Shown piece by piece: positions 3,309-13,504 of a DNA stretch of 13,504 nucleotides. How positions within the stretch are numbered: position 1 is the stretch's first letter; each line of letters opens with the position of its first letter. The DNA is from Bacteroidetes bacterium QS_8_68_15 (lineage in GTDB: Bacteria; Bacteroidota; Rhodothermia; Rhodothermales; Salinibacteraceae). The DNA is taken from assembly GCA_003023245.1 (NCBI GenBank), contig PXTR01000040.1, forward strand, positions 1 to 13,504, written 5' to 3'. The notes below the pieces were generated by a model, which worked only from the letters and a program-made list of their open reading frames with translations, was not told the origin of the DNA and did not search any database. A program made the position numbers and the translations under genes.

Positions 3309-3364
3309 CCCTTTTCACCTTTGCTCTCTTCCCCTCGTCCCTTCTCCCCCTTCCCACCATCCTA
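3309..3364. repeat. Degenerate heptad tract starting at the ATPase stop codon
   Basis: Eight consecutive 7-bp steps of the form NNYCCNN (plus strand, e.g. GTCCCTT, CTCCCCC, TTCCCAC, CATCCTA) run from 3309. The last step contains the TAG stop (3362-3364, minus strand) of the ABC ATPase gene. On the coding strand it is a purine tract with GGG about every 7 bases. A complementary pyrimidine tract (CTTCACA, CACCTTC) precedes the permease start at 3233, so the 128-bp spacer has inverted ends. Unit conservation is loose. Confidence 0.5.
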
Positions 3365-4069
3365 AACGAGTTGTCCGTCGCGCAGGCGAAACACGTCTTC
3401 CGCTGCGTCTTCGACTTCCGCGAAGTGGTGCGTGACGACGACGACGGTGCGGCCCTGCTCGTCGTGGATGTCGCGGAGGAGGTCGATGACGGCCGCACCG
3501 GTCTCGGCATCGAGATTGCCGGTCGGCTCGTCGGCCAAGAGCAGCGGCGGGTCGCCGGTCAGGGCGCGCGCGACGGCCACGCGCTGCTGCTCCCCGCCGG
3601 ACAGCTCGGCGGGGCGGTGCCCGGCGCGGTCCGCGAGGCCCACCTGCGCGAGGCACGCCTCAGCGCGGGCGCGGCGGCGCTCCGGGGCGCCGCCGGCGAG
3701 GATCATCGGCAGGGCCACGTTCTCCAGCGCCGTCATGGTGGGGACGAGGTGAAACTGCTGAAAGACGATCCCGACCATGCGCCGCCGGAACTGCGCCTGC
3801 TCGCCGCGCGAGAGGTCGGCCAGGCGCCACTCGCCGAGGCGAATCTGGCCGTCGGAAGGCCGGTCGAGCGCGGCGGCGAGGTGCAGGAGCGTCGACTTGC
3901 CGGAGCCGCTCGGTCCCACGACGGCGGCGAAGCGGCCGGCCGGCACCGTCAGCGACACGTCGCGCAGGGCGTCGACAGCAGAGCGCCCGCGCCGGTAGCG
4001 CTTCGAGACGCCCCGCAGCGCGAGGTCGGCATCGTGGGGCTGCTGCTGCGCAGGAGAAGAGGCGGCCAT
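3362..4069 (-). CDS. ABC transporter ATP-binding protein, LolD/MacB type
   Basis: This 235-residue nucleotide-binding protein has all ABC motifs in order. Walker A GPSGSGKST is at about 52-60, the Q-loop FQQFHLVP at about 103-110, the signature LSGGEQQR at 156-163, Walker B LLLADEPTGNLD beginning at about 176, and the H-loop VVTHH at about 211-215. The ADEPTGNLD sequence and short length are typical of the LolD/MacB/FtsE group, which pairs with FtsX-like permeases, and such a permease follows directly. It acts on the cytoplasmic face to power that permease. The start is set at ATG 4069 (MAASSPAQQQ). The open frame reaches 4207, but the 46 extra residues overlap the lexA stop and include translated heptad repeat. 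No Shine-Dalgarno is visible. The substrate is unknown. Confidence 0.92.
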   Translation of the reverse strand: MAASSPAQQQPHDADLALRGVSKRYRRGRSAVDALRDVSLTVPAGRFAAVVGPSGSGKSTLLHLAAALDRPSDGQIRLGEWRLADLSRGEQAQFRRRMVGIVFQQFHLVPTMTALENVALPMILAGGAPERRRARAEACLAQVGLADRAGHRPAELSGGEQQRVAVARALTGDPPLLLADEPTGNLDAETGAAVIDLLRDIHDEQGRTVVVVTHHFAEVEDAAEDVFRLRDGQLV

Positions 4070-4175
4070 GCGGGGCGGCGGGGCGTCGCCGGGGAAGATA
4101 CTACATGTTGTTCTACTTCGGGGGACCGATCGTCGTTTGTTCGACTCCACGAAGGCTTCTTGGATTTGACTGCCG

Positions 4176-4203
4176 TCCGCCCTCCACGGTCCACCGTCCC
4201 CAC
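4176..4203. repeat. Four heptads TCC-N4 abutting the lexA stop codon
   Basis: The plus strand reads TCCGCCC, TCCACGG, TCCACCG, TCCCCAC with no gap, ending at 4203, the base next to the lexA stop (4204-4206). On the lexA coding strand the tract begins immediately after TGA as units NNNNGGA. It lies in the 134-bp spacer between lexA and the ABC ATPase gene. Confidence 0.75.
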
Positions 4204-4839
4204 TCACGCCGTGGCGCTGCGCTTGAAAATGCCCTCATCGTTGACGTGGCCGACGTAGCGGCCCAGGACGGTCACCTCCTCGAACACGTCGGGCGTGATG
4301 TGAATGTCGTCGTATTCCTCGTTGGCCGGCTCCAGGCGCAGCCCCCGGTCGCCGTGGTAGACGCGCTTCAGCGAGGTTTCGCCGTCGTAGAGCACCGCCC
4401 CGATGCCGCCTTCGGGAATGTCTTCGTCGATGAGGAGAACGTAGTCGCCGTCGTGGATGTCGGCCCCGTTCATCGACTGCCCGGCCACGCGAATAGCGAA
4501 CAGCTCGTCGAGGTTGGGAAAGAGCGTGTCGAGCGTGATGGTGCCGAGGTCCGCCTCGACGGCTTCCTGGAGCGACCCGGCGGAGATGAGCCCTTTCACC
4601 GGGATACCGCCGACCGAGCGCACGGATTTTTTGTCGGCCAGGTGGTACCCCTGCTCGTCGCGCGTGAGGAAGCCCTTCTTGCGAAGCGCCTTCAGGTTCT
4701 GGGTGACGCTGTTGGGCGAGCGGTAGCCGAAGTGATCGGTAATCTCGCGGTAGGTGGGCCAGACGTCCTCCTCGCGCACGTAGCGGATGAGGTACTGGAG
4801 GAAGGCGTGCTGCTTGGCGGTCAGCTTCTTGCGACTCAT
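4204..4839 (-). CDS. lexA: LexA SOS repressor
   Basis: This 211-residue protein carries an N-terminal winged helix-turn-helix (about 1-65: LTAKQHAFLQYLIRYVREEDVWPTYREI, with the recognition helix near YRSPNSVTQNLKAL) and a C-terminal S24 autoprotease domain. The Ala-Gly self-cleavage bond is at about 87-88 (LISAGSL), the nucleophile Ser is at 122 (VAGQSM), and the general base Lys is at 158 (TSLKR). All catalytic parts are present, so it should be a functional RecA-triggered repressor of DNA-damage genes. The start is ATG 4839 (MSRKKLTAKQ), matching the family. The frame is open to 5031 but the extra 64 residues have no homology. No other obvious SOS gene is adjacent. Palindromes upstream (4902-4914, 4962-4986) are candidate autoregulatory sites. 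Confidence 0.95.
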   Translation of the reverse strand: MSRKKLTAKQHAFLQYLIRYVREEDVWPTYREITDHFGYRSPNSVTQNLKALRKKGFLTRDEQGYHLADKKSVRSVGGIPVKGLISAGSLQEAVEADLGTITLDTLFPNLDELFAIRVAGQSMNGADIHDGDYVLLIDEDIPEGGIGAVLYDGETSLKRVYHGDRGLRLEPANEEYDDIHITPDVFEEVTVLGRYVGHVNDEGIFKRSATA

Positions 4840-4892
4840 GGCAGCGGGGGCAGGAAGCGGGGAACGAGCGGGCGGTTGCACATGCTTTCCAC

Positions 4893-4922
4893 AGTTTACG
4901 GACGCCGCCGGCGTAGTTGCAA
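4893..4922 (-). promoter_or_regulatory. Candidate lexA promoter with a palindrome between -35 and -10
   Basis: On the minus strand TTGCAA (4922-4917) and TAAACT (4898-4893) are separated by 18 bp, about 55 bp upstream of the lexA ATG. Between them lies a perfect 6+1+6 palindrome ACGCCG-C-CGGCGT (4902-4914), placed where a repressor would block polymerase. GC-rich palindromes of this size also occur by chance, so operator function is only a suggestion. Confidence 0.3.
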
Positions 4923-4961
4923 GTCGTGGGTTGTTCGCTACTGGTGAACTCTTTAGCTTAA

Positions 4962-4986
4962 GTGCCCGCGCAAAAATTTCGGGCAC
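4962..4986. promoter_or_regulatory. Perfect inverted repeat GTGCCCG-N11-CGGGCAC upstream of lexA
   Basis: Seven-base arms at 4962-4968 and 4980-4986 flank an A/T-rich 11-nt centre (CGCAAAAATTT). It lies between lexA (-) and the truncated DUF4249 frame (+) and could be an operator or a hairpin. It coincides with the GTG that opens the DUF4249 frame. Confidence 0.4.
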
Positions 4987-4988
4987 AG

Positions 4989-5016
4989 ACGATGGACGAC
5001 CGACCATGGACGATGG
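4989..5016. repeat. Four heptads ACSAYSG upstream of lexA
   Basis: The plus strand reads ACGATGG, ACGACCG, ACCATGG, ACGATGG in uninterrupted 7-bp steps. This is followed by an inverted pair GACGATG (5009-5015) / CATCGTC (5029-5035). The tract sits exactly where the missing 5' part of the DUF4249 gene would be expected to start. Confidence 0.7.
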
Positions 5017-5718
5017 TTCGTCAAGACGCATCGTCCGTCGTCAATGTGTATCGCAGCTTTGACCGCGATACCGGGCCGGAGCAAAGCGAGACGTACGCGA
5101 TTCGCGTCTCAGCGCCGGGCTTTTCGGGCGTCGCCGAGGCCGTCGGACGCGCACCGGCGCCCGTGCCGTTCGGGAGCCTCTCGCGCGGCGAGGCGCCGGA
5201 GCCGGAGCAGACGGAAATCGACGTGCAGCTCACTGACCCCGAAGGCCGCGACGACTATTACACCTTGTCGGTCTATCAGCAGGCCGTGCGCAGCGACACC
5301 GTCGGGCTACAGGTGGAACTGTCATTCTCTTCCACCAGCCCGCTGTTGCAAGAAAACGCGCAGGAGCAGTTCATCGACGATGGGCCGGGCAAGGTGCGCA
5401 CGACCTACTACGACGGCGCGCTCTTTAGCGACACCGCCTTCGAGGGAGAGACGCGCCGCATGAGCATTCGCTTTACCGCCGACAACATTGGTGGCCTTCC
5501 CCCTGACGTCGAGAAGCGCACCGTCGTGGTGCTTACCTCGCTTTCGGAAGACCGCTACGAGTACCGGCGCACCCTGCGCCTCAGCGAGCGCACTGGCGAA
5601 AACCCCTTTTCTGGACCGGTGCAGATCCACTCCAACGTGCGCGGCGGGTTGGGCATTTTCGCCGGCGCGGCCCGCGTAGGGCGCGTCGTATTGCGCGAGG
5701 GGGCTTCGCCGTGAACAC

Positions 5719-6357
5719 CTACTGCCGTTCTTCGGCGAAGCGCGCCTCGAGATGCGTGTGCATCGCGTCGAGCGCGCGCCGGCGGTGACTGACCGCGTTT
5801 TTGGCCTCGGCGCTCATCTCGGCGAAGGTCTGGTCGGCGGGGGCGTCGTTGGGGACGAAGAGTTCGTCGTAGCCGAAGCCGCCGTCGCCGCGTTCGCTGC
5901 GGGCGATGCGGCCCCGGCAGACGCCTTCGACGCAGTGCGTATCGCCGGGGTCGTCACGGGAGGCGTCGGCGGGGGCGGCCAGGGCGACGACGGTGCGAAA
6001 CTGCGCGCCGCGGTCGGCCCGGCCGTCGAGGGTGCGCAGCAGCTTGCGCCGGTTGTCGGCGGCGGTGGCGTCGGCGCCGGCGAAGCGCGCGGTGTGCACG
6101 CCGGGACGCCCGTCGAGCGCGTCGACTTCCAGGCCCGTGTCGTCGGCGAGGGCGGGGACGGAGGCGAAGGCGGCGAGCGTTTCGGCTTTTTTGCGCGCGT
6201 TGCCGTCCAGCGTGTCGCGGTCTTCGACGACGGCGGGCGCACCGGGAAACTCGTCGAGCGTGCGCAGGCGGACGGGCAGCTCGGAGAGCAGGGCGCGCAG
6301 CTCGGCAACCTTGCCGTCGTTGCGCGTCGCCAGGAGGAGGTCGAACGGGTCGTTCAC
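5719..6357 (-). CDS. rdgB: XTP/dITP diphosphatase (RdgB/HAM1, non-canonical purine NTP pyrophosphatase)
   Basis: This 212-residue cytosolic enzyme hydrolyses dITP, XTP and ITP to monophosphates and so keeps deaminated purines out of DNA and RNA. Family motifs are clear: the N-terminal LLLATRNDGKVAELRALL phosphate-binding loop, GNARKKAETLA, ALADDTGLEVDALDGRPGVHTARFAG with the catalytic Asp-Asp, GDGGFGYDELFVP, and the C-terminal SHRRRALDAM. The length is slightly above the usual ~200, with a small insertion around ASRDDPGDTHCVEGV. The start is GTG at 6357 (VNDPFDLLLATRN), the only start that keeps the conserved N-terminus; no Shine-Dalgarno precedes it. It is convergent with the DUF4249 remnant. 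Confidence 0.93.
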   Translation of the reverse strand: MNDPFDLLLATRNDGKVAELRALLSELPVRLRTLDEFPGAPAVVEDRDTLDGNARKKAETLAAFASVPALADDTGLEVDALDGRPGVHTARFAGADATAADNRRKLLRTLDGRADRGAQFRTVVALAAPADASRDDPGDTHCVEGVCRGRIARSERGDGGFGYDELFVPNDAPADQTFAEMSAEAKNAVSHRRRALDAMHTHLEARFAEERQ

Positions 6358-6519
6358 GGAGAGGGGGGAGTGATGGGCGTCAAGTAGGTCCGGAACAGTA
6401 CGCTGATGATGCGGTCAGTAGCAACGACGGAGGGCCTTTTGTCATTACCCTCGCGTGGTGCGCAAGCGGACCGAAGGTCGTGCCTCTGACGCTGCTGACG
6501 ACGTTCTCGGCCCGAAAAG

Positions 6520-6554
6520 CCGTCGTCCACGGTCCGCCGTCTGTCGTCGGTCAG
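6520..6554. repeat. Five heptads (CCGTCGT-type)
   Basis: Consecutive plus-strand units are CCGTCGT, CCACGGT, CCGCCGT, CTGTCGT, CGGTCAG, i.e. roughly CNGYCGT. They resemble on the opposite strand the units near lexA (ACGATGG, GGTGGAC). Confidence 0.65.
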
Positions 6555-6605
6555 CAAGCGGAGTTTCGCTGATCTACGTAATCGGGCGGCTCGTCGGTTT
6601 GGAAA

Positions 6606-6633
6606 GCTAACGGCCAACGGCCGGAAGCGCCAC
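6606..6633. repeat. Heptads GCYAACG and derivatives
   Basis: GCTAACG, GCCAACG, GCCGGAA, GCGCCAC follow one another at 7-bp steps. The first two differ by one base and the later ones are increasingly degenerate. Confidence 0.45.
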
Positions 6634-6693
6634 CCGGCGCCGGAAGCGCGAAACATGGCCGGGCACATGCTGTTGCAGAAAAGTACCTATTTT

Positions 6694-6723
6694 CGGAAGG
6701 GCTGCTCTCCAGCCTCGCTTCCG
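6694..6723 (+). promoter_or_regulatory. Hairpin with T-rich 3' flank upstream of rpsU
   Basis: The outer stem is CGGAAG (6694-6699) / CTTCCG (6718-6723) and the inner stem is GGCTG (6700-6704) / CAGCC (6710-6714) around CTCTC. Only three unpaired bases lie on one side. GTTTTCGCTTT follows. No plus-strand gene lies upstream to be terminated, so it is either in the rpsU 5' leader (attenuator or r-protein feedback site) or is incidental. A possible -10 TAATTA (6742-6747) downstream would instead exclude it from the transcript. Confidence 0.4.
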
Positions 6724-6760
6724 GTTTTCGCTTTCCTCGAATAATTATCCCGAACATCCC

Positions 6761-6970
6761 TTGCCCGTTGGAGTCAAAGTTCGCGACAAAGAATCCATCG
6801 ACCGCGCCCTCAAGCGCTTCAAGCGCACGGTGGGCCGCAGCCGCGTGTTGCGCGACTACCGCAAAAAGATGTCGTACACCAAGCCTTCCGAGCAGCGCCG
6901 CCTCGATGAGAAGCGCTCAGTGCGTCGCCGCCACCGCCGCCGCAAAGAAAGCCGCCGCCCGCCGCGCTAA
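6761..6970 (+). CDS. rpsU: 30S ribosomal protein bS21
   Basis: This 69-residue, very basic protein starts MPVGVKVRDKESIDRALKRFKRTVGRSRVLRDYRKKM and is unmistakably bS21 of the Bacteroidota/Rhodothermota type. It has an Arg/Lys-rich tail (RRRHRRRKESRRPPR). It binds the 30S platform next to the 3' end of 16S rRNA. The start is TTG at 6761. No ATG or GTG in frame would keep the conserved PVGVKV start, so this is a real non-ATG initiation. No Shine-Dalgarno is visible upstream, although some Bacteroidia keep one on rpsU for autoregulation. The gene is monocistronic, ending in a strong terminator hairpin shared with the convergent dehydrogenase gene. Confidence 0.95.
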   Translation: MPVGVKVRDKESIDRALKRFKRTVGRSRVLRDYRKKMSYTKPSEQRRLDEKRSVRRRHRRRKESRRPPR

Positions 6971-7008
6971 ATAAGCGGCGCGCAGCCGGTTAGGCGATCT
7001 TACCGAAA

Positions 7009-7048
7009 GCCGCTTCCACGCTGGGGCGTTCCCAGTGGCGGAAGCGGC
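7009..7048. terminator. Bidirectional hairpin terminator between rpsU and the dehydrogenase gene
   Basis: Nine-base arms GCCGCTTCC (7009-7017) and GGAAGCGGC (7040-7048) are perfect complements. An inner TGGG/CCCA stem and small internal loop lie between them. AAA precedes and CTTT follows, so it can work for either convergent transcript. The U-tract is short. Confidence 0.7.
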
Positions 7049-7079
7049 CTTTGCTATGGGCGCACGGCCTTGTTTCCCC

Positions 7080-7109
7080 AAAGGCTGACTGCTAAAGGGC
7101 TGACCGCTA
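7080..7109. repeat. Two 15-bp tandem copies ending at the dehydrogenase stop codon
   Basis: AAAGGCTGACTGCTA (7080-7094) and AAGGGCTGACCGCTA (7095-7109) agree at 13 of 15 positions. On the coding strand the array begins exactly with the TAG stop (7109-7107), and the second copy again starts TAG. Fifteen is 7+8, so this may be a heptad tract with a one-base insertion. Confidence 0.65.
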
Positions 7110-8180
7110 CGCGCCCGGCGCGACGACCGCCTTGATGACGCCGTCGTCGTAGCGCGCGCCCTGCGCCAGCGCCTCGGGCGTCTCCTCGAGCGCGAAGCGG
7201 TGCGTCACCAGCGAGGCGAGGTCGACGGCGCCGCGCTCTACCATCTCGATGGCGCGCGGGTAGACGCGCTTCATGCGGCGCGAGAATTTGACGGTCAGTT
7301 CCTTGCGGCGGGCCTGCGCGGCGGTGAGGTCGTAGGCGTCGCCTTCGGGAATCCCGACGAGCACGACGCGCCCGCCGATGGCGGCGGCCTCGGTCGCGTG
7401 CTGAATTCCGACCGGTGCGTTCGTCGCTTCGAGCACCACGTCGGCACCGCGTCCGTCGGTCCACTCCATGACGGCGTCGTGCGTTGCGGCCGCCGCGTCC
7501 GCTGCGCTGGGCAGCTTCGTTGCCGCCTCGGTGCGGTAAGCGAGCGGGTCGACGATGTAGACGCGGCCCGCCCCGGCGCGGCGCGCCACCTGCGCCAGCA
7601 GCAGCCCGATGGGGCCGGCGCCCAGCACGGCGACCGTCTCCATCGGGCGAAGCTCGGCGAGGTCGACGGCGTGAATCGCCACGCCCAGCGGTTCGAGGAG
7701 GGCGGCCTCGTCGGCGGTGAACGCCGGCGGCACCGGGACGACCTCTTCCGGGCGGGCGACGAGCCATTCGGCCAGCCCACCGGGGTGCGGCGCCGCGCCC
7801 TTGAAGCGCACGTGCGGGCAGAGGTTGGGATCGCCGCGCCGGCACCACTCGCACGCGCCGCACGGACGCGCCGGGTCGACGGCCACCAGCGCGCCGGGGG
7901 CCCGGTCGAGGCGCTCGGCGCTCTCCTCGGACACCGCGGCGGCAATCTCGTGACCCGGCACGAATGGGAGGTCGTCGTGCTCCCCGTCGCCGCCGGTCGT
8001 CCCTTCGTAGAACAGGTGCAGATCGCTTCCGCAGATCCCGACGCTGCGCACCGTCAGCAGCACCTCATCGCCGTCGGCCGCAGGCCGGGGCAGGCGTTCG
8101 ACGCGCACGTCGCCGGGGCCGTGCAGCCGCGCGGCACGCATCGTGGGTTCGGAACGCGAAGACCCGTCGTCGCCGCTCAT
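7107..8180 (-). CDS. Zinc-dependent medium-chain dehydrogenase (sorbitol/xylitol or threonine dehydrogenase-like)
   Basis: This 357-residue cytosolic NAD(P)-dependent alcohol dehydrogenase has the catalytic zinc Cys50 in VGICGSD and His77-Glu78 in VPGHE. The structural zinc site has Cys107, 110, 113 and 121 (CGACEWCRRGDPNLC), and the Rossmann loop GAGPIG is at about 187-192. The sequence MRAARLHGPGDVRVERLPRP and the GSDLHLFYEG pattern fit the polyol (iditol/xylitol) branch, though threonine dehydrogenase-like members look similar. Its neighbour upstream was an L-ribulose-5-phosphate 4-epimerase, which supports a pentose or pentitol role. I list ATG 8180. The homologous N-terminus begins at Met14 (8141), and without a Shine-Dalgarno either could be right. 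A terminator separates it from araD. Confidence 0.85.
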   Translation of the reverse strand: MSGDDGSSRSEPTMRAARLHGPGDVRVERLPRPAADGDEVLLTVRSVGICGSDLHLFYEGTTGGDGEHDDLPFVPGHEIAAAVSEESAERLDRAPGALVAVDPARPCGACEWCRRGDPNLCPHVRFKGAAPHPGGLAEWLVARPEEVVPVPPAFTADEAALLEPLGVAIHAVDLAELRPMETVAVLGAGPIGLLLAQVARRAGAGRVYIVDPLAYRTEAATKLPSAADAAAATHDAVMEWTDGRGADVVLEATNAPVGIQHATEAAAIGGRVVLVGIPEGDAYDLTAAQARRKELTVKFSRRMKRVYPRAIEMVERGAVDLASLVTHRFALEETPEALAQGARYDDGVIKAVVAPGA

Positions 8181-8211
8181 GTGCGCTTTGCGTCAGGCGT
8201 TTGGGTAAGGG

Positions 8212-8243
8212 GTGAGTGACTCGTGATCCGTGACTCGTGAGGT
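8212..8243. repeat. Heptads GTGAYYC upstream of the dehydrogenase
   Basis: GTGACTC (8216), GTGATCC (8223), GTGACTC (8230) and GTGAGGT (8237) are consecutive, preceded by a partial GTGA. On the gene's strand this reads GAGTCAC/GGATCAC, roughly the complement of the tract that follows the araD stop, so the two could pair across the intergenic region. Confidence 0.7.
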
Positions 8244-8260
8244 TGTGTGCCACGGATGCT

Positions 8261-8300
8261 AAAAAAAGAGGCAAGCGCCGATGCTTTCGGAATAGCCTCT
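8261..8300 (-). terminator. Rho-independent terminator after araD
   Basis: On the minus strand, AGAGGC (8300-8295) pairs with GCCTCT (8272-8267), with an inner CCG/CGG pair in the loop region. The stem is followed directly by a run of T (A7 on plus at 8261-8267). It ends transcription coming from araD 70-110 nt after its stop and before the dehydrogenase gene. Confidence 0.75.
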
Positions 8301-8344
8301 GCGGGTAGAGGAAAGCCGGAAGCGACGCGGCCCGGCTTCATCAC

Positions 8345-8372
8345 GCAACACGAATCACGCAATACGCCTCAC
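8345..8372. repeat. Four heptads (GCAACAC/GAATCAC dialect) beginning in the araD stop codon
   Basis: The plus strand reads GCAACAC, GAATCAC, GCAATAC, GCCTCAC at exact 7-bp steps. The last unit contains the araD TGA (8369-8371). The units are the same type as the longer tract at 9092-9147. Confidence 0.75.
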
Positions 8373-9014
8373 TCTTGCCCGTAGTACGCCTCCGCGCCGT
8401 GTTTTCGCAGGTAGTGTTTGTCGAGGAGCGCGCGGTCGAGCGGGTCGGCGTCGGGGGCGAGTTGGTAGGTGTCGAGCGCCTTGCGCGCGACCGATTCGAG
8501 GACGACGGCGTGTTCGACTGCGGCGTCCAGGTCCGCGCCCCAGGCGAAGGGGCCGTGTCCGTGCACCAGCACGCCGGGGATTTCCAGCGGGTCCAGGTCG
8601 TGCTCACGAAACCGCTCGACGACGACCGCGCCGGTGTTTTTTTCGTAGTCGCTCTGGATTTCCGCTTCACGCATGGCGCGGGTGACCGGGATGGCGCCGT
8701 AGAAGTGATCCGCGTGGGTCGTGCCCAGGCACGGCTCCGCCGACGCCGGTGAACTGCCGGTACAGGTGGCGGTGGGTTGGGGTGTCAGAGGAGGGCTTGA
8801 GGTCGCCTTCGACGCGCTCGCCCGTCTGGAGCGACAGGACGGGCACGTCGTCGGGTGTGAGCGTGTCGTAGGCCACCCCGCTGGGCTTGATCGCCATGAC
8901 GCCGGCGTCGCGGTCGACGGCGCTGGCGTTGCCCCAGGTTAGCTCCACGAGTCCAGCTTCGACGATGTCCTGGTTCGCCTGCCAGACGGTCTGTTTGAGC
9001 GTGTCGTAGGCCAT
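8369..9014 (-). pseudogene. araD: L-ribulose-5-phosphate 4-epimerase, disrupted by an internal out-of-frame deletion
   Basis: The N-terminal part (from ATG 9014: MAYDTLKQTVWQANQDIVEAGLVELTWGNASAVDRDAGV, then IKPSGV, SSDTPTHRHLYRQF) and the C-terminal part (LGTTHADHFYG through MPGVLVH-type GVLVHGHGPFAWG, LLDKHYLRKHGAEAYYGQE) are both close to E. coli AraD. They lie in different frames. Between GGAV and GTTHAD only 4 nt remain where the family has about 60, so roughly 56 bp are lost near 8726-8730. This removes the HTHS zinc-ligand segment and shifts the frame. The enzyme (class II aldolase fold, L-ribulose-5-P to D-xylulose-5-P) cannot be made as is. The junction lies in a perfect short palindrome, so a sequencing or assembly artefact is possible. 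It is followed by its own terminator. Confidence 0.85.
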
Positions 9015-9091
9015 TGAAGGGGGGAGGGTGCTGTGTCAAGCGTGAATGTTTGACTTCCAGGCTGGCTACCTATCCCTTTCGGATGCGGGGG

Positions 9092-9147
9092 GCAACACGG
9101 ATCACGCAACACGCATCACGCAACACGGATCACGCAACACGCATCAT
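9092..9147. repeat. Eight perfect heptads beginning in the DAHP synthase stop codon
   Basis: GCAACAC alternates with GGATCAC or GCATCAC for eight unbroken 7-bp units, giving a higher-order 14-bp period. The final unit GCATCAT contains the TGA stop (9144-9146, minus strand) of the DAHP synthase gene. This is the cleanest tract in the window. Confidence 0.9.
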
Positions 9148-10535
9148 TCCTGAACCACCTCGCGCATGTGCACGACCGCGAAGGCCAGTTCGAGGGCCTG
9201 CTCGTAGTTGAGCCGCGGGTCCACGACCGACTTGTAGGCACGCTCCAGGTCCGTCTCCGTTAGGCCGCGCGCGCCGCCTACGCACTCGGTCACGTCTTCG
9301 CCGGTGACTTCGATGTGGAGGCCGCCCAGGTGCGACCCCTCGGCGGCGTGGATGGCGAAGGACTGCTCGACCTCCTCGCGCACGTTGTCGAAGTGGCGTG
9401 TCTTGACGTCGTCGGTGGTGCGCTCGGTGTTGCCGTGCATCGGGTCGCAGCACCAGAGCGCCGAGCGCCCCGCTTGCTGCATCGCCTCAATCAGCGACGG
9501 CAGGCGGTCTTCGACCGTGTCGGCGCCGAGGCGCGTGATGAGCGTCAGACGGCCCGGTTCGTCGTCGGGGTCGAGCGCGTCGGCGAGGGCGACCAGGTCG
9601 TCCGGCGCCAGGTCCGGCCCCACCTTCAGCCCAATGGGATTGGAAATGCCGCGCATGTACTCCACGTGCGCCTCGTCGAGGTGGGCGGTGCGCTTTCCGA
9701 TCCACGGCAGGTGCGTACCCAGGTTGAAGTAGCCGTCGGTGTGCGGGACGGTGCGGGTGAGCGCCTCTTCGTAGGGCAGGTGCAGCGCCTCGTGGCTGAT
9801 GCGGAAGGACGTCCGCTCCAGCTCGGGGAGCGGGCGGTCGCCGGCGACGGTGTCGACGAAGCCGAGCGCCTGCTGGATGTCGTCGATGACCGCCTCGTAC
9901 TCCGCACGCTGCTGCGAGTGGGCCACGAAATCGACGTCCCAGTACTCCGGGTGGTGCAGGTCGGCGAAGCCCCCTTCGGTGAGGGCGCGCACCAGGTTGA
10001 GCGTCATCGCCGAGCGCTGGTAGGCGCTGAGCATCCGCTCGGGGTCGGGCCGGCGCGCCTCCTCGGTGAAGGCGGGGTCGTTGACGAGGTCGCCGCGGTA
10101 GCTGGGGAGCGTCGTGCCCTGCTGCGTTTCGGTGTCGGAGGAGCGCGGCTTGGTGAACTGCCCGGCGAAGCGCCCCACCCGCACCACGCGCGTGCCGAGG
10201 CCGTAGGTCAAGACGATGCTCATCTGGAGCAAAATCTTGAGCCGCGCGGTGATGACGTCGGCGGAGCACTCGTCGAATAGCTCGGCACAGTCGCCGCCCT
10301 GGAGCAGAAACCGGTCGCCCGCTTCCGCCTCGGCCAGTTGGTTCTTGAGCGCGGCGACCTCCCAAGACGTCACCAGCGGCGGCAGCGTTTCGAGCTCCCG
10401 AAGGGCCGCCCCGAGCGCCGCGTCGTCGGGATAGGTCGGCTGCTGGCGGGCGGTGCGTTCGCGCCAGGAGGCCGGCGTCCAAGACGGCGGGACGGCGGAG
10501 GCAGTCGTTTCGGCGGCGGGGGCGTCAGTGGACAT
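9144..10535 (-). CDS. 3-deoxy-7-phosphoheptulonate (DAHP) synthase, class II
   Basis: This 463-residue enzyme condenses phosphoenolpyruvate and erythrose-4-phosphate, the first step of the shikimate pathway to aromatic amino acids. Class II (plant/Mycobacterium-type) motifs run through the whole protein. They are FLLQGGDCAELFDE, RVVRVGRFAGQFTKPRS, the FRISHEALHLPYEEALTR segment, LGTHLPWIGKRT, NPIGLKVGP, LWCCDPMHGNTE with the metal-ligand Cys/His region, and GGLHIEVTGEDVTECVGGA. The length is as expected. The start is ATG 10535 (MSTDAPAAET). The open frame extends to 10679, but those 48 residues show no homology and cover the inverted repeats in the leader. No other aro gene is nearby. Confidence 0.95.
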   Translation of the reverse strand: MSTDAPAAETTASAVPPSWTPASWRERTARQQPTYPDDAALGAALRELETLPPLVTSWEVAALKNQLAEAEAGDRFLLQGGDCAELFDECSADVITARLKILLQMSIVLTYGLGTRVVRVGRFAGQFTKPRSSDTETQQGTTLPSYRGDLVNDPAFTEEARRPDPERMLSAYQRSAMTLNLVRALTEGGFADLHHPEYWDVDFVAHSQQRAEYEAVIDDIQQALGFVDTVAGDRPLPELERTSFRISHEALHLPYEEALTRTVPHTDGYFNLGTHLPWIGKRTAHLDEAHVEYMRGISNPIGLKVGPDLAPDDLVALADALDPDDEPGRLTLITRLGADTVEDRLPSLIEAMQQAGRSALWCCDPMHGNTERTTDDVKTRHFDNVREEVEQSFAIHAAEGSHLGGLHIEVTGEDVTECVGGARGLTETDLERAYKSVVDPRLNYEQALELAFAVVHMREVVQE

Positions 10536-10549
10536 CGGCGAGGGGAAGT

Positions 10550-10619
10550 CCGTGTTACGGAAAAGAGACACGGGGCCAACGTCCGCGTCTGCGAAGGGTT
10601 CGAGCAAGGAAGCGAACCC
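10550..10619. promoter_or_regulatory. Two inverted repeats in the DAHP synthase leader
   Basis: CCGTGT (10550-10555) / ACACGG (10568-10573) lies 15 bp before the start codon. GGGTTCG (10596-10602) / CGAACCC (10613-10619) with a 10-nt centre lies further upstream. Both are perfect. They could be operators or hairpins of a 5' leader (feedback or attenuation of aromatic synthesis). No leader peptide rich in aromatic residues was found. Confidence 0.3.
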
Positions 10620-10672
10620 CGGCGCAAAACGCAAAGCGCGCGCCGCCGAGCCGCCCGCCGCCGGACGGGTCT

Positions 10673-11056
10673 TCAGCATATCCTCACGCGCGCATTGCGG
10701 GCGCTGAGCACGACCGCCCGCCCGAACAAGCCGCCCGCCGCGCCGCGGTCGGGGCCGGTGAGCCGCGCGGCTCGGGCGTAGGAGCCGTCTTCCGGGCGGC
10801 GCGTGAAGATGTAAGCGCTGCTTCGCCCTTCTGTGCCGCGCACGCTGTCGACCGGCGCGCCGACGAGGACGGTGTGGCCGTGCTTGTCAGCCGCAACGGC
10901 GGCTCCGAAAAACCCCGCCTCGGCGGCGGCGTCGGGAGGAGACAGTTCCGTTTCTTGCGCCTGCACCGGGGAACGGGCGGCCAGCCCTAACAACGTCGCC
11001 GCCAACAGCAAGACGAAGTATCGCCCGGCTTGCGGTGTACGCAACAGTCGGGGCAT
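10673..11056 (-). pseudogene. FG-GAP repeat exported protein, 3'-truncated remnant
   Basis: The 127-residue frame starts with a good signal peptide (MPRLLRTPQAGRYFVLLLAATLLGLAARSPVQAQ, cleavage likely after AQA/Q). It continues with one clear FG-GAP (integrin-alpha/beta-propeller) repeat, GFFGAAVAADKHGHTVLVGAPVDS...SAYIFTRR. A second repeat begins at GGLFGRAVVLS, then falls into non-homologous residues (ARNARVRIC) and stops. Family proteins have several such repeats and hundreds of residues, so the gene has lost its 3' part. No continuation is seen in other frames downstream before the DAHP synthase leader. If translated, the product would be a secreted fragment. Confidence 0.65.
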
Positions 11057-11204
11057 CGGCCGGAAGGGAAAATGCGAGAGACGCCCGCCGGAAACTGCGG
11101 GGTTAGAGCGAAGTCTATGTTTTGCAAGCTAATGCGACCCCGCCCCGCATGACAATAGGTCCCTGCGTCTTCTTCTTAATTCCTTGACCAAGTCCGCGCC
11201 TCTT

Positions 11205-11232
11205 CGTTCGACCGACGGACCGACCGCGAACG
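11205..11232. repeat. Inverted repeat CGTTCG-N16-CGAACG enclosing an 8-bp direct repeat, after the carboxypeptidase stop
   Basis: Perfect 6-bp arms enclose GACCGACG followed by GACCGACC. It lies 13 bp past the M32 stop on its 3' side. There is no T-run, so it is not a convincing terminator. Confidence 0.35.
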
Positions 11233-11245
11233 CTCCTCGTCACCC

Positions 11246-12772
11246 TTACAGCCCGTAGATCGCGCTGAACTTCTCGTGGGCGTAGTTCAGCCACGGCCCG
11301 GCCGACAGCGTCTCGCCGGTGACGCGCTCCAGCAGGTCGGCAGCCTGGAGTTTGCGCCCGTGCCGGTGAATGTGCTCGCGCAGCCATTCGCGAAGCGGGG
11401 TGAACGCGCCGCGCGCAAGCTGCGCGTCGAGGTCCCCCAGGTCGGCCCGAGCCTGCCGGAAAAGTGGCACGCTCATGAGGGTGCCCAGCGTGTAGGTCGG
11501 GAAGTATCCGAACGCGCCCATCGGCCAGTGCACGTCTTGCAAGACGCCGTTGGCGTCCGAGTCGGGGACGACGCCGAGATAGTCGTCCATTGCCGCGTTC
11601 CAGCGCTCGGGCAGGTCCTTCACGGCAAGGCGCCCTTCGATGAGTGCACGCTCGATTTCGAAGCGCAGCATCACGTGCAGGTTGTAGGTCACCTCGTCGG
11701 CCTCCACGCGGATCAGCGAGGGCTCCACCCGGTTGGCGGCGCGGTAGAACGACTCTTCCGATACGTCCGACAGCTGCTGCGGGAAGTGCTCTTGGAGCGT
11801 CGGGAAGTACCATCGCCAGAACGCGCGGCTGCGGCCGACGAGGTTTTCCCAGAGGCGCGACTGGCTCTCGTGCAAGCCCAGCGAGGCCCCCTCCGCCAGC
11901 GGCGTGCGCTCCAGTTCCTCGGCGACGCCCTGCTCGTAGAGGCCATGGCCGGCTTCGTGGAGCGTGGCGAAAAAGCCGGCGCCGAAAAACTGCGGGTCGA
12001 AGCGCGTCGTGAGCCGTACGTCGCCGGTCGAAAAGGAAGTCGTGAACGGGTGCGCCGAGCGGTCCTGCCGCCCGCGCCCGAAATCGTATCCGAAGGCGCG
12101 GATCACCTCCTCGCCGGCCGCCTGTTGCACGTCGGGAGCGAATTCGCCACGCAGGCAGGCGTCGTCGACCGGCTCGGCCTCTCCGATGGCGTTCACGAGC
12201 GGGACGAGGTCGTCGCGCAGCTGCTCGAAGAGCGGCGCCACGTCGGCGGTGCGCGCGCCGGGTTCGTACTCGTCGAGGAGCGCGTCGTAGGGCGTCGCGT
12301 CTCCGCCCGCCCCGTATCCGATCGCCTCGGCCTTCTCGCGATTCAGCTCCACGAGGCGCCGGAGGTGCGGAGCAAAGGCGTCGAAATCGTCCTCGGCGCG
12401 CGCGGCTTTCCATGCCTCTTTCGCCTCGGAGGCGGTCTGCGCGAGGCGCGCGACCAGATCCGACGGCAGCTTGCGCTTGCGTTCGTAGTCGCGCTGCGCG
12501 ACGCGCACGAGCGCCGCGTCGTCGTTCGACAGCGGATCGTCGTCGTCGAACTGCGGGGCGAGGTCGTCGAGCAGCGCGCCCACGTCGTCGCGGGTGAAGG
12601 CCCGGTGCGCGAGGCGCTGAAGCGTCGAGAGCTGACGGCTGCGCGCGGCGGCTCCGCCTTCGGGCATGAACGTTTCCTGATCCCATGACAGCACGGCGGC
12701 GGCGGCTTCGAGGTCGGCCGCTTCGGCAAGGTGCGCTTTGAGTTGACGTAGTTTGCTGGTCGGTTGGTTCAT
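11246..12772 (-). CDS. Carboxypeptidase Taq-type metallocarboxypeptidase (M32)
   Basis: This 508-residue cytosolic zinc carboxypeptidase removes C-terminal residues from peptides. The family motifs are complete: LSWDQETFMPEGGAAARSRQ near the N-terminus, HPFTTSFSTGDVRLTTRF, the zinc site HEAGH at 272-276, HESQSRLWEN at 301-310, IRVEADEVTYNLHVMLRFEIE, and HWPMGAFGYFPTYTLG. The length is normal for M32 (about 500). The start is ATG 12772 (MNQPTSKLRQLKAHL). The frame is open to 12943, but the added 57 residues translate the repeat-rich intergenic region. The first codons (NQPTS) themselves lie in the GGTT/AACC-type repeat sequence. No Shine-Dalgarno is visible. Confidence 0.95.
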   Translation of the reverse strand: MNQPTSKLRQLKAHLAEAADLEAAAAVLSWDQETFMPEGGAAARSRQLSTLQRLAHRAFTRDDVGALLDDLAPQFDDDDPLSNDDAALVRVAQRDYERKRKLPSDLVARLAQTASEAKEAWKAARAEDDFDAFAPHLRRLVELNREKAEAIGYGAGGDATPYDALLDEYEPGARTADVAPLFEQLRDDLVPLVNAIGEAEPVDDACLRGEFAPDVQQAAGEEVIRAFGYDFGRGRQDRSAHPFTTSFSTGDVRLTTRFDPQFFGAGFFATLHEAGHGLYEQGVAEELERTPLAEGASLGLHESQSRLWENLVGRSRAFWRWYFPTLQEHFPQQLSDVSEESFYRAANRVEPSLIRVEADEVTYNLHVMLRFEIERALIEGRLAVKDLPERWNAAMDDYLGVVPDSDANGVLQDVHWPMGAFGYFPTYTLGTLMSVPLFRQARADLGDLDAQLARGAFTPLREWLREHIHRHGRKLQAADLLERVTGETLSAGPWLNYAHEKFSAIYGL

Positions 12773-12812
12773 CAGTTTGGGAGTTGTTGGTTTGCCCACT
12801 TCGTTCGCGTTT

Positions 12813-12840
12813 GATTGTTGGTCATTGGTGGTTGGTTTTC
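12813..12840. repeat. Heptads GGTNNTT upstream of the carboxypeptidase gene
   Basis: GATTGTT, GGTCATT, GGTGGTT, GGTTTTC are consecutive at 7-bp steps, with looser GGTT-type sequence continuing to the start codon at 12772. The tract is the inverse of the AACC-type tract at 12953-13001 across the intergenic region. Confidence 0.65.
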
Positions 12841-12875
12841 GCGTTTGCGAAGCGTCTGCCGATCGAGAACCAAAA

Positions 12876-12953
12876 ATGAAAAACTCAGGAAGTCTCGAAG
12901 CGATCCGACGAATGCTCATCGCCCTGATGAAAAAGGTCGGCACGAACCGCTAA
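12876..12953 (+). other. 25-codon mini-ORF, possible C-terminal remnant of a four-helix-bundle (23S IVP-like) gene
   Basis: ATG AAA AAC ... TAA encodes an amphipathic helix ending LEAIRRMLIALMKKVGTNR. This resembles the last helix of the four-helix-bundle/S23 proteins that are common as orphan genes in Bacteroidota. The similarity is a judgement by eye over about 19 residues. It lies between inverted heptad tracts and on the opposite strand to its neighbours. It may equally be a chance frame. Confidence 0.25.
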
Positions 12954-13001
12954 CCAACCAAAAACCGACGACCAAAAACAAAAAACCAACAACCAAAAAC
13001 T
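12953..13001. repeat. Seven heptads (NNNNACC type) beginning in the permease stop codon
   Basis: The plus-strand units are ACCAACC, AAAAACC, GACGACC, AAAAACA, AAAAACC, AACAACC, AAAAACT, all in register. The last overlaps the TAG stop (13000-13002, minus strand) of the permease gene. On the coding strand this is a GGTTTTT/GGTTGTT tract after the stop. Confidence 0.85.
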
Positions 13002-13504
13002 ACCCCCGCAACCCCCTCGGCAGCACGACCCGCTCGACCGCCTCCAGCAGCGCCAGCAGCAGCATCGTCAGCACCGCCGCCGGGACCGTGCCTTCCAGGA
13101 TCAGCCCCAGGTCCGCGCGCCGAATGCCCGTGAGAATCGGCTGCCCGTAGCCGCCCGCCCCGATCAGTGCGCCGAGCGTAGCGGTGCCCACGTTGATGAC
13201 GGCCGCGATCTTGACCCCCGCCAGCACCGAGCGCGCCGCCAGCGGAAGCTCCACGCGCCGCAGCTTCGCCCACGGCGAGAGGCCCAGCGCGTCGGCGGAG
13301 GCGCGCGTCGGACCGTCAATGTCACGCAGGCCGGTGTAGGTGTTCCATACGACGGGCAGCAGGCTGTACAAAAAGAGCGCCGTCACGGCCGGGACGCGCC
13401 CCAGCCCCAGCGGCGGCACCATCAGCGCCAGGAGCGCCAGCGAGGGCACCGTGTACGTCAGCCCCACCGCCAGCAGCAAGCCTTGCCCGGCGAGGCCCCC
13501 TTTG
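13000..13504 (-). CDS. Osmoprotectant/glycine betaine ABC permease (OpuBB/ProW-like), N-terminus outside window
   Basis: The frame is open to the right edge (Lys-Gly-Gly-Leu-Ala-Gly-Gln-Gly upstream of LLLAVGLTYTVPSLALLALM), so the gene continues beyond 13504. The 168 visible residues are the core of a binding-protein-dependent permease. They include TVPSLALLALMVPPLG, the helix YSLLPVVWNTYTGL, and the EAA-type loop ADALGLSPWAKLRRVELPLA that contacts the ATPase. VINVGTATLGALIGAGGYGQPILTGI is characteristic of the OpuB/OpuC/ProW choline, carnitine or betaine uptake group, followed by a last helix (VLTMLLLALLEAVERVVL). It imports compatible solutes across the inner membrane, fitting a salt-adapted organism. 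Partner ATPase and binding-protein genes would lie to the right. Confidence 0.9.
   Translation of the reverse strand, partial: KGGLAGQGLLLAVGLTYTVPSLALLALMVPPLGLGRVPAVTALFLYSLLPVVWNTYTGLRDIDGPTRASADALGLSPWAKLRRVELPLAARSVLAGVKIAAVINVGTATLGALIGAGGYGQPILTGIRRADLGLILEGTVPAAVLTMLLLALLEAVERVVLPRGLRG

Follow-up and report, generated by a model that had tools for sequence, protein, structure and literature searches.

Short tandem tracts of seven-base units (heptads) stand at gene borders in the stretch of Bacteroidetes bacterium QS_8_68_15 analysed here (assembly GCA_003023245.1, contig PXTR01000040.1, 13,504 nucleotides; hereafter the window), and comparison with seven relatives shows that the pattern is real, widespread and belongs with a kind of repeat already described in other bacteria. 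The tracts keep to a preferred seven-base step, are confined largely to intergenic DNA, are in a minority of cases anchored at codons that bound genes, and carry a strand polarity, and at a few orthologous loci they have changed in copy number or in concert. We hold it, with modest confidence, to be probable that they are intergenic heptad repeats of the described kind, produced by slippage in seven-base steps and retained outside coding DNA. The first-pass annotation of the window had proposed heptads anchored at the stop codons of six genes, each locus with its own unit, and had named 3′-end formation, mRNA protection or a process inserting 7-mers as possible roles; a seven-base mutational process is the best-supported part of that interpretation.

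Heptad tracts in the window and its relatives

With a tract defined as a period-7 segment scoring at least 10, the 2,742 bases of intergenic DNA in the window held seven, compared with a mean of 0.0 in 10 dinucleotide shuffles and with 0 or 1 segment at each of the other periods from 4 to 13. Eight sets were compared in all: the window and seven relatives (G001, G002, G004, G007, G008, G013 and G036), represented by 2.18 Mb of DNA in stretches, plus L001. The nearest relative found was the metagenome-assembled genome Bacteroidetes bacterium QS_8_68_28 (L001, in G001), whose DAHP synthase is 80% identical to that of the window; more distant relatives included the cultivated Longimonas halophila (Rhodothermota; G002) and Salinivenus iranica. 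We refer to the window, G001, G007 and G008 as the window's group, and to G002, G004, G013 and G036 as the four more distant genomes. Genes were called by a caller trained on homology-supported frames, which recovered 115/116 stops in G001, 33/35 in G007, 77/78 in G008 and 35/35 in G036, and which also chose the start codons used throughout. Terminator, stop-cassette, phase-mismatch and syntenic-pair counts used earlier longest-open-frame calls, with a stop recovery of 103/116, 30/35, 29/78 and 9/35 in the same four genomes. The final set comprised 241 intergenic tracts, seven of them in the window and 195 in the window's group.

Every relative exceeded its shuffled mean in intergenic period-7 segments: 61 compared with 2.1 in G001, 12 with 1.0 in G007 and 89 with 1.9 in G008, and, among the more distant genomes, 7 with 0.8 in G002, 7 with 1.0 in G004, 5 with 0.8 in G013 and 23 with 0.4 in G036. 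Tracts were not equally common in coding DNA, a comparison that the first-pass annotation had suggested: intergenic density was higher in all eight sets, and ranged in the relatives from 8.2 to 125.9 tracts per 100 kb compared with 0 to 5.2 in coding DNA (52.6 and 3.3 in G001; 125.9 and 5.2 in G008). The step spectrum of G008 peaked at period 7, with lobes at 6 (18 compared with 1.8 in shuffles) and 8 (35 and 2.1), lesser excesses at 4, 9, 12 and 13 (8 to 12, and 1.4 to 1.9), harmonics at 14 and 21, and counts near chance at 5 (3 and 1.7) and 10 (3 and 1.1). The notion that chance or faulty assembly lies behind the tracts merits next to no credence: the closest relatives are indeed draft or metagenome assemblies, but the excess over shuffles was present in 8/8 sets, including the single-contig 4.5 Mb genome G036 and the cultivated L. 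halophila.

Plain self-match of intergenic DNA at lag 7, also proposed in the first-pass annotation, is a weaker test than tract counting. Values at lags 6, 7 and 8 were 0.278, 0.321 and 0.286 in the window, 0.296, 0.304 and 0.285 in G008, 0.286, 0.297 and 0.283 in G036, and 0.290, 0.294 and 0.285 in G001, giving an excess at lag 7 in these four sets that was slight in G001.

Tandem duplications at longer periods, seemingly of a different class, were seen in the intergenic DNA of G001 (L001, L089-L108, L157-L176), with 41, 38, 24 and 33 at periods 15-18 compared with 1.7-3.1 in shuffles; periods 15 and 16 reach two thirds of the G001 heptad count.

Placement and strand polarity

Tract edges are enriched at stop codons. 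With the window excluded, 37 of the 212 tract sides that face a stop codon fell between −5 and +4 of it, compared with 18.9 (standard deviation (sd) 3.9, maximum 31) in 500 random placements within their own spacers, and 27 of 222 fell at that distance from a start codon, compared with 16.8 (sd 3.4, maximum 29). Anchoring is real at stops, where it is about twofold, and weaker at starts. Placements were allowed at most 10 bases of gene overlap, so the comparison is not a fair one for the bin from −30 to −6 (26 compared with 13.5 at stops; 3 compared with 8.3 at starts). Stop anchoring thus exceeds chance in the relatives, but it is a minority property, and start codons are abutted too. Within the window, the period-7 test upheld four of the six proposed stop-anchored ends (lexA, araD, DAHP synthase and permease); the dehydrogenase end has a period of 15 instead, and the ABC ATPase end a period of 8. 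In the 50 bases past its stop the latter reaches 13 at period 8 and has a period-7 score of 7, too low to count as a heptad tract under the test used. None of six further gene 3′ ends had a period-7 tract in the 50 bases past the stop, leaving 4 anchored ends of the 12 examined.

The coding strand is G-rich past the stop at lexA, araD, DAHP synthase and permease, as the first-pass annotation had it, and the same polarity runs through the relatives. On the strand leading out of the gene, 63 stop-side tracts in the window's group were G-rich and 5 C-rich (n = 78), which exceeds the background of 0.46:0.23 in tract-free spacers (p = 5e-7); in the four more distant genomes the counts were 9 and 1 (n = 14, p = 0.0016). 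The outward G-rich polarity is partly inherited from the composition of gene ends, although not wholly so at stops. Ahead of starts as placed by our caller, the 32 flanking bases are C-rich on the coding strand even where there are no tracts (0.80 of 605 ends in the window's group and 0.72 of 530 ends in the other genomes).

A gene-exiting strand that is G-rich at both ends of a spacer is also what would be expected from a footprint of break repair or reverse transcription, in which 3′ ends leaving genes are extended with heptads and then joined to give inverted pairs. We regard this as very improbable. A reverse transcriptase is present in the tract-patterned G004, G015 and G033, but of 41 relatives two (G026 and G040) had Ku and eight had an RVT_1 reverse transcriptase, and neither was found in G001, G002, G003, G007, G008, G010, G012, G014 or G030; some of the assemblies are incomplete. 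As generators of the tracts, Ku and reverse transcriptase fail to track the trait; no search was made for further enzymes of end joining or extension.

Density also depended on the orientation of the flanking genes: tandem spacers had 78.8 tracts per 100 kb, convergent ones 56.5 and divergent ones 29.6, with 28 tracts in 256 divergent spacers compared with 169 in 1038 tandem ones. The earlier gene calls, which are poor for G008 and G036, gave no per-spacer depletion between divergent genes.

Units, cores and quadruplex potential

Tract units are degenerate and recur between loci. The claim that each locus has its own unit was only partly true: araD and DAHP synthase share GTGTTGC/GTGATNC, and lexA and the tract at 6525 share GGACCGT. 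In the window's group, 77 of 154 clear-unit tracts have an exact unit in common with another tract, compared with 30.4 under letter shuffling and 67.8 (maximum 76) under dinucleotide shuffling, far above one null and just above the other, so that the strength of any unit lexicon depends on the null chosen. Diversity within one genome is considerable (47 distinct units among 77 clear-unit tracts in G008).

Favoured core words differ by lineage. We scanned 41 relatives for the core patterns GATTNNN and GTGNNGC, counting overlapping matches in one tract repeatedly. Whole-genome matches to GATTNNNGATTNNNGATT numbered 60 in G030, 49 in G012 and 44 in G010, with none in 19/41 relatives, and matches to GTGNNGCGTGNNGCGTG lay in partly different genomes (53 in G008, 33 in G022 and 18 in G015). 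Reversed patterns were at or near zero in most of the 41 genomes, with exceptions for the GTG pattern in G036 (31 reversed compared with 1 forward), G030 (10 and 8) and G035 (7 and 0), and for the GATT pattern in G041 (31 and 0) and G033 (6 and 22). At least five matches to either core pattern were present in 20/41 genomes, and across all 41 the two informative unit patterns were not correlated (Spearman 0.20, p = 0.21); a further pattern, GGANGGTGGANGGTGGA, was uninformative, with matches in 2/41.

Order-specific cores at tens of places in some genomes invite the idea that the tracts are arrays of binding sites for an RNA- or DNA-binding protein that reads a lineage-specific core in seven-base steps, as suggested, in the part of the paper drawn on here, by MacGregor for TAACTGA arrays (PMC4679880). 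Mismatches within tracts are likewise uneven over the seven phases (2206 compared with a null of 2030, sd 32; 121/192 tracts), but such unevenness is also expected from duplicated variant units, and with the many units seen within one genome we consider protein-binding arrays distinctly unlikely.

Only 6 of the 241 tracts have four or more GGG runs (98 have four or more GG runs), so G-quadruplex formation cannot be their common cause. Frame-independent stop cassettes were also rejected: 58 stop-side tracts held 95 stop triplets compared with 72.2 expected, a count that takes in the genes' own stops and so does not amount to a clear excess, and a stop triplet is missing from several of the common units.

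Change between orthologous loci

In the region of G008 orthologous to window positions 5616-9014 (L243, about 82% identity), the araD-dehydrogenase spacer still has heptads at either end; its middle has diverged, and an insertion splits the stop-side arm. On the start side the window has TCACGAG TCACGGA TCACGAG where G008 has TCACGCG TCACGAG TCACGCG, the first and third units having changed alike; upstream of ham1, GGCCGTT x2 in the window corresponds to GGCTGTT x2 in L243, again with both units changed alike. One convergent spacer that carries GGCTGAC-type units differs in length by 14 bases between G007 and G001, being the shorter in G001. Elsewhere, the permease-M32 junction of G001 (L001) holds a short remnant of the TTTTTGG-type unit, the lexA tract is absent in G001, and the neighbour of lexA differs in G008. 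Of 18 syntenic pairs found (a search that is poor in G008), seven had a flagged tract in at least one of the two genomes and fell within the length limits set: one between the window and G001, five between G007 and G001, and one between G008 and G001.

At one G007/G001 junction an inverted heptad-like pair is present in both species with different units, and a hairpin of about −31 kcal/mol is predicted in both; the G007 pair falls short of the tract threshold and was recognised by visual inspection and from its fold. Other syntenic junctions have a flagged tract in one genome only. Taken at face value, the junction with differing units would fit a border 'label' with a lineage-specific, swappable core, in which the inverted pair stays and the unit is replaced, implying a dedicated writer or reader and not passive slippage. 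We see this as a long shot; were it true, the dedicated factor would be either an enzyme writing seven-base units outward from the ends of genes or a protein reading such units.

Pairing between the arms of a spacer

The first-pass annotation had also placed a C-rich counterpart of the stop-side tract ahead of the next start, and this is clear at the dehydrogenase and at M32, where the fold prediction joins the start-side arm to the stop-side one. A stop-side G-rich arm and a start-side C-rich arm would together form an RNA hairpin, which might protect 3′ ends, end transcripts or couple translation, its unit being free to vary as long as the arms match. Within the window's group, own arms in tract-bearing tandem spacers 60-350 bases long did pair better than swapped ones (−23.04 compared with −20.25, sd 0.49, n = 92). 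Divergent spacers gave no matching (−25.81 and −27.77, sd 1.09, n = 14) and convergent spacers no clear effect (−26.97 and −25.88, sd 1.85, n = 14; 3/14 above the 95th percentile of swapped arms). Tract-bearing tandem spacers also fold somewhat more strongly in prediction (z −1.13, compared with −0.62 for spacers that lack tracts), and the hairpin at the unit-swapped junction is in keeping with such a structure. However, weaker matching of own arms was present in tract-free tandem spacers (−23.25 compared with −21.97, n = 363; 21/150 above the swapped 95th percentile).

In their arrangement the arms are suited to an RNA hairpin, yet two tests for selection on the sense transcript were negative. 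Arm mismatches were of the G.U type in 29 cases and of the A.C type in 26, no clear G.U excess, and in tract-bearing spacers the sense strand was predicted to be less stable than the antisense by 5.3 kcal/mol (standard error (se) 0.95, n = 79), similar to the gap of 4.2 (se 1.0, n = 90) in tract-free spacers. A crude scan for terminator-like sites with a U tract found none in 92 tract-bearing tandem spacers, and is itself insensitive, since only 7/745 other spacers were positive. Selection for a sense-strand hairpin was rejected as a candidate on the mismatch and strand-stability tests, the roles in 3′-end formation and mRNA protection that were first proposed find little support, and a functional RNA is in our judgement possible but on balance unlikely.

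Features of the window

The gene content of the window is ordinary and, by Pfam match, comprises a MacB/FtsX permease, an ABC ATPase, LexA, Ham1, a zinc dehydrogenase, a class II aldolase family gene (araD) in two pieces, a class II DAHP synthase, an M32 carboxypeptidase and a transport permease. Tracts and related features are given in Table 1. Among the further tracts named in the first-pass annotation, those at 4989 (score 10) and 6520 (score 11) reached the threshold and that at 6606 (score 8) did not.

Table 1. Heptad tracts, partner arms and related repeats in the window.
Feature	Positions	Strand	Description
ABC ATPase stop-side G-rich stretch	3310..3362	-	Touches stop TAG 3362-3364; period-8 segment, score 15
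lexA heptad tract	4172..4199	-	Coding-strand GGACGGT/GGACCGT, starts 4 bases past stop; period-7 score 11
Heptad tract, GACGATG-type	4988..5016	+	Period-7 score 10
Inverted partner CATCGTCCGTCGTC of the 4988-5016 tract	5029-5042		Read in sequence
Heptad tract upstream of ham1	6525..6552	-	Minus-strand GGACCGT-type; period-7 score 11
Weak heptad tract, GGCCGTT x2	6606..6622	-	Period-7 score 8, below threshold
15-base duplication from zinc dehydrogenase stop codon	7080..7109	-	Score 11 at period 15, 3 at period 7; present in L243
Dehydrogenase start-side arm	8203..8240	+	22 bases ahead of start; CGTGACT-type on + strand, C-rich on coding strand; period-7 score 11; kept in L243
araD stop-side arm	8339..8372	-	GTGTTGC/GTGATTC, stop codon included; period-7 score 10, period-14 score 12-13; interrupted in L243
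Longest tract, from DAHP synthase stop (included) onward	9092..9146	-	Reads TGATGCG TGTTGCG TGATCCG TGTTGCG ...; period-7 score 26, period-14 score 33-35
Start-side partner arm ahead of M32 carboxypeptidase start	12782..12836 (approximate)	+	G/T-rich; from sequence; below period-7 threshold
Permease stop-side heptad tract	12956..13000	-	Coding-strand TTTTTGG-type; period-7 score 18

In the middle of the araD-dehydrogenase spacer, between its two heptad arms, positions 8261-8300 hold AGAGGC...GCCTCT followed by a coding-strand T run, which resembles an intrinsic terminator. The araD aldolase itself (8369-9014) is spread over two open frames that overlap and that each match a part of PF00596, and its aligned stretch is 56 bases shorter than in L243, which could be a real deletion or an assembly fault. 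A CRISPR-like (clustered regularly interspaced short palindromic repeats) array occupies positions 384-1625, with a 22-base core in 21 exact copies at 61-base spacing and 20 copies of the full 28-base repeat GGTCTATCTCCGCGTGGGCGGAGTCATC. No Rfam match was present in the window at the gathering threshold, and a known RNA family was rejected.

Relation to known repeats

Cyanobacterial short tandemly repeated repetitive heptads, which the first-pass annotation had named as an analogue, are tandem heptanucleotides with several units per genome, and the analogy is apt. Repetitive extragenic palindromic elements, miniature inverted-repeat transposable elements and similar dispersed elements are likewise intergenic, recurrent and sometimes inverted; in the one tract examined for such homology, 9092-9146 matched an unlinked G001 tract (L097) within the repeat only.

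The closest likeness is to the GGGNATC-type heptads (GGGAATC, GGGGA(C/T)T) of Xanthomonas and Nostoc reported by Rehm et al. in 2015, who left their function unsettled (PMC4692102). As set out in the portions of that paper relied on here, those repeats have a G-rich coding strand up to 50 bp past the stop, also where they overlap it, and a G-rich non-coding strand up to 50 bp ahead of starts; they form inverted pairs of a degenerate unit and are scarce between divergent genes. The first-pass annotation had taken stop anchoring with locus-specific units to be undescribed, but both placement and strand polarity were thus already on record, and the geometry is not new. To judge from the same portions, our tracts have in common with them degenerate tandem seven-base units that are mostly intergenic (enriched in 8/8 sets here), coding-strand G-richness near the stop (here beyond background), inverted pairs (here with arm matching in tandem and not in divergent spacers) and a greater frequency between aligned than between divergent genes. 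Non-coding G-richness on the start side is, in our tracts, equal to background composition. Unit number is alike as well, most often four in theirs and with a median of 4.6 in ours. In contrast, Rehm et al. followed one quadruplex-capable consensus per genome in the sections concerned, whereas many units occur per genome here, a GGGNATC or GGGGA(C/T)T consensus is present in 3/241 tracts, and the four GGG runs of such a quadruplex are as scarce as stated above. Their paper also mentions three Calothrix heptanucleotides and cites a 2007 survey of heptamer excess.

MacGregor in 2015 described TAACTGA direct repeats in Beggiatoaceae, Cyanobacteria and Bacteroidetes, with other heptamers mixed in in Microcystis and some Bacteroidetes, and indels between two Cyanothece strains that were mostly of 7 bases (PMC4679880, in the portions relied on here). 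Short intergenic heptads at gene borders with a patchy distribution across genomes are common to both cases; those arrays, as described there, have a single unit and lie mostly ahead of starts in the BOGUAY genome, whereas TAACTGA was present in 0/241 of our tracts. In the collection of papers searched, no account of such tracts in Rhodothermota was found. New here are that one genome has many different units, that cores are specific to lineages, that quadruplex potential is generally lacking, and the comparisons between orthologues.

Origin of the tracts

Slippage combined with exclusion from coding DNA is favoured because it accounts for the step spectrum, the 14-base difference between G001 and G007, the concerted changes of units, intergenic confinement and the pile-up against stop and start codons. 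Tracts would arise and turn over through duplication and deletion with a preferred seven-base step, presumably by slipped-strand replication, and units would be homogenised within a tract. Occasional inverted copying may set a second arm at the opposite end of the spacer. Purifying selection would account for where tracts lie: a seven-base insertion frameshifts a gene, so that most surviving tracts would be those outside coding DNA, accumulating next to the codons at which genes start and stop. They are also thinner where two promoters face each other.

Several observations weigh against slippage as the whole account. Slippage alone explains neither the stop-side polarity nor the order-specific recurring cores, for which loci would have to be copied from one another, the process would have to favour certain sequences, or the core would have to be under selection; the choice of seven and the recurrence of cores within lineages are left unexplained. 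Cores recur at unlinked loci, with 53 matches to GTGNNGCGTGNNGCGTG in G008 compared with 0 for the reversed control and 60 to GATTNNNGATTNNNGATT in G030 compared with 3 for its control, and local slippage from random seeds is not sufficient for this. Own-arm matches above the swapped 95th percentile in tandem spacers (19/92) and their absence from divergent ones (0/14) are unexpected from a process acting purely on DNA. Start-side polarity (46 compared with 2, n = 50) equals the background composition (p = 0.77), exact unit sharing is only just above its dinucleotide-shuffled null (77 compared with 67.8), and lag-7 self-match is not raised in four of the seven relatives (G002, G004, G007 and G013). 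Orthologous loci are few, and provide examples and not a rate.

Heptads at gene borders thus occur in distant bacteria, and the literature found does not show the reason for the seven-base step or for the outward G-rich strand. In this clade a single genome has many units, a given core is present in some relatives and absent from others, and most tracts are without the runs that quadruplexes require. The leading published idea thereby drops out as a common cause, and slippage, RNA pairing and protein binding can be separated experimentally.

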